A DNA stretch of 64,000 nt from positions 62,001 through 126,000 of the forward strand of contig NZ_JARXIA010000001.1 in NCBI RefSeq assembly GCF_031127875.1. Direction: 5' to 3'. The position numbers and the translations under genes are program-made. The stretch is from Pelagicoccus sp. SDUM812005. Lineage in GTDB: Bacteria; Verrucomicrobiota; Verrucomicrobiia; Opitutales; Opitutaceae. Shown one piece after another: positions 49,433 through 59,709 of the stretch. Each line of letters starts with the position of its first letter. Within the stretch, counting starts at the first letter, position 1. Below the pieces are notes generated by a model, which ran no database searches, was not told the origin of the DNA, and saw only the letters and a program-made list of their open reading frames with translations.

Positions 49433-51094
49433 ATGAGTTCAATAATGTCTGAACTTCTCGCCCAGACCTCCTTCGACCAGCTCAAGGAAGGTTCTATCGT
49501 AAAGGGCACCATCACCGAAATCCGCCAAAACGAAGTCGTAGTCGACATCGGCGGTAAGTCCGAAGGACTTGTTCCTGGCCAAGAATTCGTCGACCTCGGC
49601 GAACTCCAGATCGGGGAAGAAATCGAAGTCTACCTCGAAAAGCTCGAAAACAAGGAAGGCAATCCGCTTCTTTCTTTCGACAAGGCCGAGCAGAAGAAGA
49701 ACTGGGAGAACATCATCACCAAGTGTGAAGAAGGTTCGATCGTACAGGGCCGCGTTAAGGGCAAGGTCAAGGGCGGTCTCATCGTTGCGATGGGCGTCGA
49801 TGCTTTCTTGCCAGCTTCCCACATCGATATCCAGCCTCCTAAGAACCTGGACCAGTACATTGGCCAGACTTACGATTACAAGGTTCTCAAAATCAATTTG
49901 GAGCGGAAGAACATCGTACTTTCCCGCCGCGAGCTGATCGAAGAGCAACGCGCTTCCAAGCGTCGCGACCTCCTCGAGCGCGTCAACCCTGGCGATGTCG
50001 TCAAGGGTGTGGTCAAGAACATCACCGACTTCGGCGCGTTCATCGACCTCGACGGCATGGACGGTCTCCTGCACATCACCGACATGAGTTGGGGCCGTAT
50101 CTCTCACCCGAGCGAAATGCTCAAGCAGGGTGAGGAGATCGACGTGATGATCATCGAGATCAACCGTGAGAAGGAGCGTGTCTCCCTCGGTCTCAAGCAG
50201 ACCAAGTCCAACCCATGGCAGGACATCGAGGCCAAGTACCCAATCGGCGCCAAGGTTGCCGGCAAGGTCGTCAACCTCGTGCCTTACGGCGCCTTCATCG
50301 AAATCGAAGAAGGTGTGGAAGGTCTCGTGCACGTTACCGAAATGTCCTGGACCAAGCGCATCACCAAGCCAAGCGAGCTCCTCAAGGTTGGGGACGAAGT
50401 GGAAGCAGTGGTACTCGGCATCCAGAAGGACGAGGAGAAGATCTCCCTCGGCATTCGTCAGCTCGATCCAAACCCATGGGACATGGTCGTGCACAACTAC
50501 CCAGTTGGCGCCCACGTTCACGGCAAGGTTCGCAACATCACCACTTACGGTGCGTTCGTGGAGCTCGAAGAAGGCATCGACGGCATGGTTCACGTGTCCG
50601 ACATGTCCTGGACGCGCAAGATCAACCATCCGTCCGAAGTCCTCAAGAAGGGCGACGAGATCGATGCCTTGGTACTCGACGTGGACACTGGCAACCAGCG
50701 TATCTCCCTCGGCATGAAGCAGCTTGCTGACGATCCTTGGGCAGACATCGACGGACGCTTCCGCATCGGCGACGTGGTTTCCGGCACCGTTTCCAAGATC
50801 ACTTCCTTCGGCGCTTTCGTCGAGTTGCAGGATCACATCGACGGTCTCGTTCACATCAGCCAGATCAGCGAAGAGCGCGTAGAGAAGATCAAGGACGTCG
50901 TAGACATCGGCTCCGAGGTTACGGCTCGCGTTATCAAGATCGACCGCGAAGAGCGCCGTCTCGGCCTCTCCATCAAGGCTGCGAACTACGACGACAGCCA
51001 GTTGGCTCAGGAAACTGCCACTTACGACAACATGAGCGACGGCGGCGACTTGATGAACTTGGGCGACATCCTCGACCAGGCTTCCAACAAGTAG
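49433..51094 (+). CDS. rpsA: 30S ribosomal protein S1
   Basis: S1 helps the 30S subunit bind and unwind mRNA. The 553-residue protein contains six S1/OB repeats, starting around residues 18, 97, 180, 265, 352 and 437: for example GSIVKGTITEIRQNEVVVDI, GDVVKGVVKNITDFGAFIDL, GAKVAGKVVNLVPYGAFIEI and GDVVSGTVSKITSFGAFVEL. Six repeats and this length match E. coli S1. A second in-frame ATG (MSELLAQTS) follows four codons in. A perfect -10 box and two leader hairpins lie upstream, and a strong terminator follows. Codon use is strongly C-ending, as expected for a highly expressed gene. Confidence 0.96.
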   Translation: MSSIMSELLAQTSFDQLKEGSIVKGTITEIRQNEVVVDIGGKSEGLVPGQEFVDLGELQIGEEIEVYLEKLENKEGNPLLSFDKAEQKKNWENIITKCEEGSIVQGRVKGKVKGGLIVAMGVDAFLPASHIDIQPPKNLDQYIGQTYDYKVLKINLERKNIVLSRRELIEEQRASKRRDLLERVNPGDVVKGVVKNITDFGAFIDLDGMDGLLHITDMSWGRISHPSEMLKQGEEIDVMIIEINREKERVSLGLKQTKSNPWQDIEAKYPIGAKVAGKVVNLVPYGAFIEIEEGVEGLVHVTEMSWTKRITKPSELLKVGDEVEAVVLGIQKDEEKISLGIRQLDPNPWDMVVHNYPVGAHVHGKVRNITTYGAFVELEEGIDGMVHVSDMSWTRKINHPSEVLKKGDEIDALVLDVDTGNQRISLGMKQLADDPWADIDGRFRIGDVVSGTVSKITSFGAFVELQDHIDGLVHISQISEERVEKIKDVVDIGSEVTARVIKIDREERRLGLSIKAANYDDSQLAQETATYDNMSDGGDLMNLGDILDQASNK

Positions 51095-51123
51095 TCCTGT
51101 ATCACGTTTTTCGATACTTTCGA

Positions 51124-51154
51124 AGCGGACCTCTTTCGAGGTCCGCTTTTTTTT
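51124..51154 (+). terminator. Intrinsic terminator of rpsA
   Basis: AGCGGACCTC (51124-51133) pairs with GAGGTCCGCT (51138-51147) across TTTC, followed by a run of eight Ts (to 51154). It lies 29 bases after the rpsA stop. Confidence 0.94.
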
Positions 51155-51301: not shown

Positions 51302-51676
51302 ATGACCGTTACTGACTTCGTACCTGTATTGATCCAGATCGCCCTCGCAGCGGGGCTTGCCGGCGCTATCCTGACCGGAAGCGTGCTTTTTGGCCAACGC
51401 GGTTCCAAGAACAAGATCAAGAACTACGCCTACGAGTGCGGCATCAAGTCCGATGGTAAGACGAGCACCCGCTTCTCCGTGAAGTTTTACGTGACGGCGA
51501 TGCTTTTTATCCTCTTCGATATCGAAGTTCTCTTTCTGATCCCCTGGGTGCTGGTGTACCGCGATTTCGTGGCCAACAGCCTTCCGATTCTTGGCCCCAT
51601 CCTCTTTTTCCTCGGAGTGCTCGTCGTCGGGCTTTTCTACGAGTTGAAGAAGGGCGCGTTGGAGTGGGAAAAGTAA
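51302..51676 (+). CDS. nuoA: NADH-quinone oxidoreductase subunit A (lone copy)
   Basis: A 124-residue membrane subunit of respiratory complex I. Three transmembrane helices are seen (FVPVLIQIALAAGLAGAILT, VTAMLFILFDIEVLFLIPWV, LPILGPILFFLGVLVVGLFY). The invariant segment YECG and the following FSVKFYVTAMLFILFDIEV match NuoA/NdhC. No other nuo gene is adjacent; the remaining subunits must lie elsewhere or this is a displaced copy. The ATG at 51302 is chosen; upstream codons run into the rpsA terminator region. The diadenylate-cyclase-like gene starts 44 bases downstream. Confidence 0.9.
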   Translation: MTVTDFVPVLIQIALAAGLAGAILTGSVLFGQRGSKNKIKNYAYECGIKSDGKTSTRFSVKFYVTAMLFILFDIEVLFLIPWVLVYRDFVANSLPILGPILFFLGVLVVGLFYELKKGALEWEK

Positions 51677-51720: not shown

Positions 51721-53085
51721 ATGAGACTCGACCGATATTTTTCGCGGAGGCGTACACTCGACCTCGAAAGCGACAACCTAGAGGGCGCTCTAAAAGAGCT
51801 GCTCAAGGTGTCCACGTCCCGATTCAAGGACTTGGAGGGCAAGCGGCTGCTGCCAGGGTTGATGCAGCGGGAGAGCACCATGACGACCTACCTCGGCAAC
51901 GGGGTGGCCTTGCCTCACTTGCGGGTCAAGATGCGGCGCAAGTACGTGTTCGCCATCGGGCGCTCGAAGGAGGGCTTCGATTACGAAGGGCCTAAGAATC
52001 AGGAGAAAGTGCACTTGGTGGTGCTTCTCTTGGCAGGTGAGGGGGCACGGGATTACTTGAACGTGCTGGCGGCGGTTGCTCGCCTGGTCAAGGATCGGGC
52101 GTTCGTCGAAATGCTGCTGGCTTCGGCGAGCCTCGACGATCTATACGAGCAGCTGACCTCGGCCTTCGGCGGGATTTTGGCGTCGCCCAAGAAGACGCGG
52201 CAGAGCTCCATCAATCGCTTGATGTTGCGCCAGGCCATGCGCGTGGCCAAGGGGGTGCATTGCGATTCGATCGCCGTCTTTGGCGATACTCTCGTCTCGA
52301 GCCCGGTGGAGCCGCCGGAGGGGTTCAAGGAGTTCAAGACGGTGCTCATCTCCCGCCGGGCGAAAGAGGGCGACGTGGAGGATTCGGTTTTCAACGAGGT
52401 TATCCAGGTTCGTTCCTTTTCCAACGGTCGCCTGGCCCAGATGCGTTCTGCGTTTTTGGTCGGACTGACTCGTGGCGTCTTCAAGACTTCGGACAAGATC
52501 TGCTGCGTTGGTGGAATTCCGGGCAGCGACCAGTTCGATACCTTGGTGGTTATCGACATGAAGAACGAGTTCCAGGCTTTGCTGGCCGAGCGGGACAACT
52601 TCATGCCGAGCGACGTTTCGCCGGAGGTTCTGGAGCGCGTGATTGGCGTGGCTATGGAGCTTTCGATCGAGGGTCGGGAAGGGCGGCCGGTGGGCACGCT
52701 CTTCGTCTTGGGCGATACCAAGAAGGTTGAGAGCATGACCAAGCCGCTGGTTTTGAATCCGTTCTACGGCTACAAGGAGGAGGATCGGAACATCCTCAGT
52801 CCCTTTATGGACGAGACGGTGAAGGAATTCTCCGGTTTGGACGGAGCCTTCATTATTAAAGGCGACGGGGTTCTGACCTCGGCGGGTAGCCTGATCCATA
52901 CTCCGGAGTTCGACCAGACGCTGCCGAGCGGCTTGGGGGCTCGCCATGCGGCCGGGGCGGCGATATCGCTGGCGACGGACTGCCTGGCGATCGTGGTTTC
53001 GTCGAGTTCCGGCCAGGTGACGGTGTTTCGCAACGGAATCGCCTTGCCGTTGGTGGAGCGATCTTTCGGGGGCAAGTCGCTTTAG
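51721..53085 (+). CDS. PTS-EIIA-like / diadenylate cyclase (DAC) domain fusion protein
   Basis: A 454-residue cytosolic fusion protein. Residues about 1-150 resemble a PTS EIIA type-2 (EIIANtr/fructose) domain with an intact phospho-His motif GNGVALPHLR (H66). Residues about 155-290 (AVFGDTLVSSPVEPPEGFKE, LAQMRSAFLVGLTRGVFKTS) look like the pyruvate-kinase-C-like domain found next to archaeal DAC domains. The last about 140 residues are a DisA_N/DAC domain: MELSIEGREGRPVGTLFVLG, LDGAFIIKGDGVLTSAG (DGA at 374-376) and LGARHAAGAAIS, where the RHR motif reads RHA (408-410). DAC enzymes make c-di-AMP. Retention of DGA favours nucleotide binding; the altered third motif residue leaves catalytic activity open. 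Domain order is certain; function is inferred. Confidence 0.8.
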   Translation: MRLDRYFSRRRTLDLESDNLEGALKELLKVSTSRFKDLEGKRLLPGLMQRESTMTTYLGNGVALPHLRVKMRRKYVFAIGRSKEGFDYEGPKNQEKVHLVVLLLAGEGARDYLNVLAAVARLVKDRAFVEMLLASASLDDLYEQLTSAFGGILASPKKTRQSSINRLMLRQAMRVAKGVHCDSIAVFGDTLVSSPVEPPEGFKEFKTVLISRRAKEGDVEDSVFNEVIQVRSFSNGRLAQMRSAFLVGLTRGVFKTSDKICCVGGIPGSDQFDTLVVIDMKNEFQALLAERDNFMPSDVSPEVLERVIGVAMELSIEGREGRPVGTLFVLGDTKKVESMTKPLVLNPFYGYKEEDRNILSPFMDETVKEFSGLDGAFIIKGDGVLTSAGSLIHTPEFDQTLPSGLGARHAAGAAISLATDCLAIVVSSSSGQVTVFRNGIALPLVERSFGGKSL

Positions 53086-58989: not shown

Positions 58990-59460
58990 CTAGAAGGAAG
59001 GAGTGATGGTGGTTTCCACGCCTGGCTCGGCGACGTCGTTGTATCCACCGCTCCAGTACTCGTCGTTGATGAGTACCTTGAACTCGAAGGCCGTGGTGAC
59101 GCCTGCAATGTCGATGCTCCAGCTGGAGTCGGACTTGCAATCCATGGGGATGCCTTCGGACCAGGAGAGTCCGTTGGCGCTGCCGCGTAGGAAGAGGGTG
59201 TTCCCGAAGCCGATATCGACGTTGGCGACGATAGTGGTTTTGGGAGCTGCTTTCTTAGCGGGCTTTTTAGCTGCGGCCTTTTTGGCGGGAGCCTTCTTGG
59301 CGGGCGCTGGAGCAGCTGCCTTAGTGGCAGGAGCCTTAGCGGCAACCTTCTTGGCGGCCTTCTTGGCGGGAGCTTTCTTGGCGGCTACCTTTTTGACGGC
59401 GGCCTTTTTGACGGCTTTCTTTGCGGCCTTCTTGGCAGCGGCGATAGTAGTCTTTTTCAT
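58990..59460 (-). CDS. Lys/Ala-rich-tailed protein with a C-terminal starch-binding-like domain
   Basis: A 156-residue protein with two parts. Residues 1-about 75 are a Lys/Ala/Pro repeat (AAAKKAAKKAVKKAAVKKVA, KAPAKKAAAKKPAKKAAPKT), like histone H1 or HU-tail proteins. Residues about 76-156 (NVDIGFGNTLFLRGSANGLS, WSEGIPMDCKSDSSWSIDIA, FEFKVLINDEYWSGGYNDVA) resemble a CBM20/CBM48-type starch-binding fold (aromatic residues at the expected ligand sites). No signal peptide is seen, so it is cytoplasmic. It may bring glycogen and nucleic acid or anionic surfaces together. The glycogen phosphorylase here carries a similar tail. An upstream in-frame ATG (59628) is possible, but the ATG at 59458-59460 starts the repeat. 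Confidence 0.72.
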   Translation of the reverse strand: MKKTTIAAAKKAAKKAVKKAAVKKVAAKKAPAKKAAKKVAAKAPATKAAAPAPAKKAPAKKAAAKKPAKKAAPKTTIVANVDIGFGNTLFLRGSANGLSWSEGIPMDCKSDSSWSIDIAGVTTAFEFKVLINDEYWSGGYNDVAEPGVETTITPSF

Positions 59461-59709
59461 GAGTTTGTCTTCTGATTTGGTACCGGTTTTGGTGTTGGAT
59501 TCAACGGAGTGAGAAATGCCAACCGGCTCCCAGTTTCCGCGAATGAACACATACTTTTGCGCAATAGCAACAGCGAGATGTCCTTCGTGCGTTACGCCTG
59601 AGTGACGCCCGCCGTTGTTGCGCTCCATTAGCAGTGGTCGCGCCAGAAATCAAATCTGATCGAAGCTTATTAGCGAGCCTGCATTTCGGCTTAAGCGGGG
59701 ACGCAAAAA

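Follow-up and report, generated by a model that had tools for sequence, protein, structure and literature searches.

For most classes of diadenylate cyclase, little is known, to our knowledge, about what sets the synthesis of the second messenger c-di-AMP. A class called DacD was reportedly defined by Corrigan and Gruendling in 2013 and drawn with an EIIA domain, and the 2023 survey by Galperin is said to have named the DacZ_P domain. EIIA proteins of the PtsN (EIIA-Ntr) and FruA types are not known to be fused to a cyclase; they share with the protein described here the EIIA_2 fold and the phospho-His motif. The accessible part of PMC6741144 lists proteins of Lacunisphaera, Puniceicoccaceae, Coraliomargarita, Verrucomicrobia and Opitutae as DacD representatives, and because this class with its Opitutae members is already in print, the fusion is filed here under a known kind and its build is not new. 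The same source, in the sections available, describes DacZ N-termini as having a predicted fold of the PK_C kind, places N-terminal membrane helices in CdaA, and records that purified H. volcanii DacZ made c-di-AMP with Mn and that E. coli lacks a DAC. The DAC fold and the DGA, R-H and S motifs are common to CdaA/DacA and the fusion, whereas the N-terminal part of the latter consists of EIIA and DacZ_P. DacZ resembles the fusion in its C-terminal DAC domain and in the GLGxRH and S-x-S motifs, the fusion having DacZ_P before DAC; in contrast, two haloarchaeal DacZ are only about 268 aa long and have no EIIA domain. A search of the open-access literature returned, by title, no paper on an EIIA-cyclase fusion.

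The window, that is, the whole 64,000-nucleotide stretch of Pelagicoccus sp. SDUM812005 DNA that was analysed, encodes one such fusion, for which domains, folds, motif conservation, gene set and gene order were computed. Its main features are the following:

51721..53085, + strand: EIIA-DacZ_P-DAC fusion (DacD-like diadenylate cyclase), 454 aa, assigned from the open reading frame, Pfam, relatives, AlphaFold2 and Foldseek
51757..52158, + strand: PTS_EIIA_2 domain, residues 13-146 (Pfam 1.4e-20; PtsN fold match)
51916..51918, + strand: codon of the predicted phospho-acceptor H66, which lines up with the PH motif in PtsN chains and is invariant in alignment A3
52213..52575, + strand: DacZ_P domain, residues 165-285, a probable sensor in Pfam's wording (Pfam 2.1e-13)
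52663..53037, + strand: DAC (diadenylate cyclase) domain, residues 315-439 (Pfam 1.8e-19; CdaA/DacA fold match)

A first-pass annotation made from the sequence had proposed a three-domain build with a "pyruvate-kinase-C-like" middle region, and each domain scored above its Pfam cut-off: 74.2 bits against 27 for PTS_EIIA_2, 50.5 against 27.4 for DacZ_P (PF21755) and 70 against a curated 27 for DAC. The middle region proved to be Pfam's DacZ_P; a profile comparison over the whole chain gave a weak match to pyruvate kinase 3eoe (E 9.8e-4, no single stretch passing alone), in agreement with the earlier description. The residue numbering given there (H66, DGA at 374-376, RHA at 408-410) was correct, and the profile search it had suggested as a check placed PTS_EIIA_2 and DAC above cut-off at the E-values listed. 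The other suggested check, structure prediction, gave an AlphaFold2 model that matches the PtsN and CdaA/DacA folds: in Foldseek it aligned with PtsN 3urr_A (TM by target 0.87, probability 1.00) and with DacA 6gyw_B (TM by target 0.65, probability 1.00). Mean pLDDT was 80.9 and pTM 0.57, a low value that does not fix the domain arrangement. The input was alignment A3, whose 60 rows are the window protein and 59 of 80 near relatives and are biased to close kin; the intact phospho-His motif reported earlier is borne out by H66, which is invariant across these rows and aligned with the PtsN PH motif. Among the 45 full-length proteins of alignment A1, M1 is invariant and H66 varies.

Regarding class, the best NCBIfam match was DacZ (NF041371), at 117.4 bits and below the equivalog cut-off of 430; by sequence, the window protein is kin of DacZ and not a DacZ member. 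The earlier statement that it belongs to none of the best-known classes stands, the DisA, CdaA and CdaS models being far below cut-off (22.8 of 201, 29.6 of 188.8 and 24.1 of 225, respectively). For the EIIA part, the PtsN model TIGR01419 scored 44.3 against a cut-off of 138.7 and the FruA-type model 53.9 against 103.5. The fusion probably belongs to DacD, whose named representatives come from the same clade as the fusion's relatives.

Of 288 genomes in the phylum, 45 contain a match along the entire protein, and the fusion is thus not a frame or assembly artefact; the type is common in Opitutales. Among the matches listed, all 25 genomes of its own family (the window genome included) and 16 further genomes of the order have one, G102 and G146 have none, and four far matches, at 30-33 % identity, lie outside the class. 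Some match at 1e-5 occurs in 253 of the 288 genomes, mostly, among the matches listed, to the EIIA part alone. Named relatives within the best 80 of 555 include Pelagicoccus (84 %), Puniceicoccaceae, Opitutaceae, Lacunisphaera and Didemnitutus. A phage link was set aside; the matches of 12 phage records are confined to the EIIA part (residues 1-147). An 840-codon frame around the cyclase of a relative (L048) was discarded as another fusion: only its last ~300 residues are related, and the rest is presumably a gene-less open frame.

The active site was compared at three motifs:

52840..52848, + strand: DGA, residues 374-376; D and G invariant in 45 and 63 proteins, third residue A, G, S or C
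52942..52950, + strand: RHA, residues 408-410, counterpart of RHR; R and H unchanged throughout the sets of 45 and 63 proteins, third position variable
52999..53007, + strand: S427-S429, counterpart of (V/I)SEE; SES in two haloarchaeal DacZ

D374, G375, R408 and H409 are invariant in the 45 proteins of alignment A1 and in 63/63 proteins of the order set, EIIA-less ones included. This second set has one protein per DAC-bearing genome, drawn from 70 genomes of the order; further DAC proteins of G000, G313 and G334 lie outside it. Where the full motifs would be RHR and (V/I)SEE, the window protein reads RHA and VSSS, with Ser429 at the position of CdaA Glu124 and Ala407 at that of CdaA Thr102. 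The residue that follows RH varies in relatives and haloarchaeal DacZ (A, S, T, N, M, L, G, V or H), and a single relative (L047) has R there. The Glu124 position is Ser or Thr across the fusion family in both the 45- and the 63-protein sets. Two Haladaptatus proteins annotated as DacZ, with RHH and SES (LSES), also lack the third Arg. According to the available portion of PMC7288161, the ten active-site residues of CdaA include Thr102, R103, H104 and Glu124 and not the third Arg of RHR, and the DGA and RHR motifs are important in catalysis. The first-pass annotation had taken RHA as a sign of a modified enzyme or of a c-di-AMP-binding sensor, a suggestion that loses force with a third residue variable in DacZ kin. 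The doubt is weaker because the motifs are kept in 63/63 proteins, two haloarchaeal DacZ do without the third Arg and H. volcanii DacZ is active. Judging from these motifs, the RHA and SxS departures probably mark a kin group and not decay, and the window protein is most probably a functional DacZ-like cyclase. In the literature covered, part of which was available in sections, no activity test of an enzyme of this class was found.

A single DAC match was found in 60 of the 63 DAC-bearing genomes of the order, mostly the fusion (that of G323 is of the EIIA-less kind). The Pelagicoccus genome itself has a second DAC protein, of 313 aa and without EIIA, which reads DGG and RHL (L002 964-1905, contig C32). 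Similar EIIA-less proteins are present at L050, L175 and L176, and the one at L050 (5998-6885) weakly matches (E 0.043) a chain of solved structure, 37jy, designated Panoptoo PanS synthase. Two genomes of the order have a different type of DAC domain, at L173 and L177 (PF02457 at 112 bits in a frame of 438 codons and at 108 bits in one of 402), which the search with the DAC part of the fusion missed. In the Pfam profile search, seven of the 70 genomes had no DAC match. The PF07698 domain, which we take to be PgpH, is found in 61 of the 70 genomes and in 59 of the 63 with DAC; it is absent from 5/7 DAC-less vs 4/63 DAC-bearing genomes (Fisher p 2e-4, uncorrected for kinship or completeness), and two of these five DAC-less assemblies are incomplete (G292, 80 %; G302, 50 %).

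In profile searches, EI, HPr and HPr kinase were each matched once in the Pelagicoccus genome. HPr has GIHARPA and KSIMG, HPr kinase has GSSGVGKS and EI has TSHT; we take GIHARPA as the HPr phospho-His motif, KSIMG as the regulatory-Ser motif and GSSGVGKS as Walker A. The families searched also took in the PF02378 permease and EIIA-man, neither of which gave a match, and the only PTS_EIIA_2 in the genome is that of the fusion. Of the 70 genomes of the order, 6 have PF02378, as against 57 with EI, 61 with HPr and 59 with HPr kinase. Because the genome has one EI, one HPr and one HPr kinase, lacks a PF02378 permease and holds its sole PTS_EIIA_2 in the fusion, its phosphorelay probably ends on a c-di-AMP synthase, and a regulatory phosphorelay with the cyclase as end point would be the simplest reading of this gene set. 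An upstream phosphorelay is present in the same genome, and c-di-AMP synthesis may respond to it, as the first-pass annotation suggested.

The natural variants of H66 were scored in 60 proteins of the order, excluding those of G297 and G325, which are truncated at contig ends, and that of G323, where only an EIIA-less protein was found. H66 is present in 43/49 EI-bearing genomes and in 5/11 EI-less ones, these five being G293, G299, G307, G310 and G315. The nominal Fisher p is 0.005 (43, 6, 5, 6) with kinship ignored. A quick tree, with weak forks, long branches and G314 and G319 joined doubtfully, implies a minimum of five changes of H66 and four of EI and leaves two independent pairs with a median p of 1, and for this reason the association was dropped as proof. 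One family has Tyr at the H66 position (four genomes: G290, G311, G321, G332) and another has Ser (two genomes: G149, G175), all six with EI, HPr and HPr kinase; these clades count against a strict need for H66. Seven small genomes (0.8-1.0 Mb) have no EI, HPr or HPr kinase matches. In four of them (G306, G318, G319, G328) the EIIA domain is eroded or gone and the cyclase motifs are kept, G314 has an EIIA domain without the His, and G293 and G310 retain this residue.

Loci L182, L184, L185 and L189, from one family, have Tyr for H66, no nuoA neighbour, and EI, HPr and HPr kinase in their genomes, and at L042 and L043 a fusion with Ser for H66 retains its nuoA pair. G102 and G336, of another genus in the same family as L042 and L043, have neither DAC nor PF07698 matches. 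At L165 (239-2696, minus strand), a locus of a small genome that gave no EI match, an HPr kinase frame starts ~15 nt past the cyclase frame in the same orientation, and the residue at H66 is Tyr.

We consider it rather likely that the fusion is an active, metal-dependent synthase of the DacZ kind, probably DacD, with H66 as the end acceptor of the relay and with phosphorylation setting the c-di-AMP level. Phosphoryl groups would pass from PEP to EI, HPr and H66, with HPr~P phosphorylating H66, and the state of H66 would set how readily two DAC domains pair and hence how much c-di-AMP is present; we infer both the catalysis and the phosphorylation of H66. A PgpH-type phosphodiesterase would remove the product, and DacZ_P may add a second input. 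Because EIIA-less proteins keep their cyclase motifs, unphosphorylated EIIA is taken here to restrain the cyclase and phosphorylation to release it; this direction is a guess, leaning only slightly to the side given. In the part of PMC11808508 available, unphosphorylated PtsN inhibits the K+/H+ antiporter YcgO in E. coli, and c-di-AMP controls potassium balance in many bacteria, as stated in the available text of PMC7900238; by analogy with these two systems, K+ balance is a plausible output.

Three other explanations were weighed. The cyclase could be active with EIIA acting as a docking or dimer module, or persisting as a vestige, in which case phosphorylation of EIIA would not control synthesis. 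The Tyr and Ser clades, which still have an EIIA domain although EI and HPr are encoded in their genomes, fit this explanation, as do the cyclase motifs that stay intact after EIIA is lost. However, H66 is invariant in the 60 rows of A3 and kept in most scorable EI-bearing genomes (the 43/49 above), and we regard this alternative as unlikely.

A degenerate cyclase domain, with the protein serving as a sensor of c-di-AMP or ATP, would account for RHA in place of RHR and for S429 in place of CdaA Glu124, RHR being a motif called important in catalysis in the available portion of PMC7288161. It is weakened by the same departures in two haloarchaeal DacZ, set beside the activity of H. volcanii DacZ (PMC6741144, available sections); moreover, the fusion is mostly the single DAC match of DAC-bearing genomes, the Pelagicoccus genome with its second DAC protein excepted, and nearly all of these (59/63) also have PF07698. 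A reverse flow, in which the state of the cyclase or of DacZ_P alters phosphoryl flow at EIIA and the protein is a phosphorelay buffer with c-di-AMP as a secondary output, is consistent with the sole PTS_EIIA_2 of a genome in which neither a PF02378 permease nor EIIA-man was found, and with EI-less G331, where an HPr kinase frame follows the cyclase frame by ~15 nt on the same strand. Where EIIA is lost, however, the cyclase motifs outlast it, and we see only a slim prospect for reverse flow and a slightly slimmer one for the degenerate sensor.

The fusion gene also has a conserved upstream neighbour:

51122..51149, + strand: strong terminator-like hairpin (12 pairs and a T run) between an S1-repeat gene (49433-51094) and nuoA
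51302..51676, + strand: nuoA, complex I subunit A, 124 aa (PF00507, 6.6e-29)

nuoA ends 44 nt upstream of the fusion on the same strand and is the only PF00507 match in its genome. The terminator search listed no site in the 44-nt gap and one weak 5-pair site within the end of nuoA. nuoB is on a different contig, followed by frames that visual inspection assigned to nuoE to nuoK, with nuoC and nuoD not recognised among them, and no nuoB-like frame was found in any of the 159 loci examined. The nuoA-cyclase pair occurs in 41/61 scorable genomes of the order, a count that leaves out two contig-edge loci and includes the EIIA-less locus of G323, and in 90/94 of a second set (96 loci, two at an edge), which may share species with the first. 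In two of the four misses of the second set (L066 and L112, same contig) nuoA is present and failed the distance rule. Genomes that lack the pair include the small ones and those of the H66Y family; the H66S family has it. From distance and conservation we infer that nuoA and the cyclase are cotranscribed. Rfam gave nothing at gathering score in the 64-kb window and seven related loci.

A broader proposal, which we put forward as tentative and rather doubtful, is that across much of the order a PTS of EI, HPr and HPr kinase without PF02378 ends on a c-di-AMP synthase cotranscribed with nuoA, so that PEP supply would set c-di-AMP and its dose would be tied to complex I. If true, this would be a carbon- and respiration-gated c-di-AMP switch. 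As the sole copy in its genome and apart from the other nuo genes, nuoA offers a second, independent lead to the subject of the signal. The putative links of the cyclase to a phosphorelay with no known transporter and to a respiratory-chain gene look informative; the enzyme carries its own input domain, and EI and HPr could be used to rebuild the donor chain in vitro. The open-access literature search, in one library and mostly at title level, brought up no permease-less relay, nuoA pair or EIIA loss pattern of this kind. Further downstream in the window, on the minus strand (58990-59628), lies a gene for a protein with a long Lys/Ala/Pro-rich stretch followed by a different C-terminal part.
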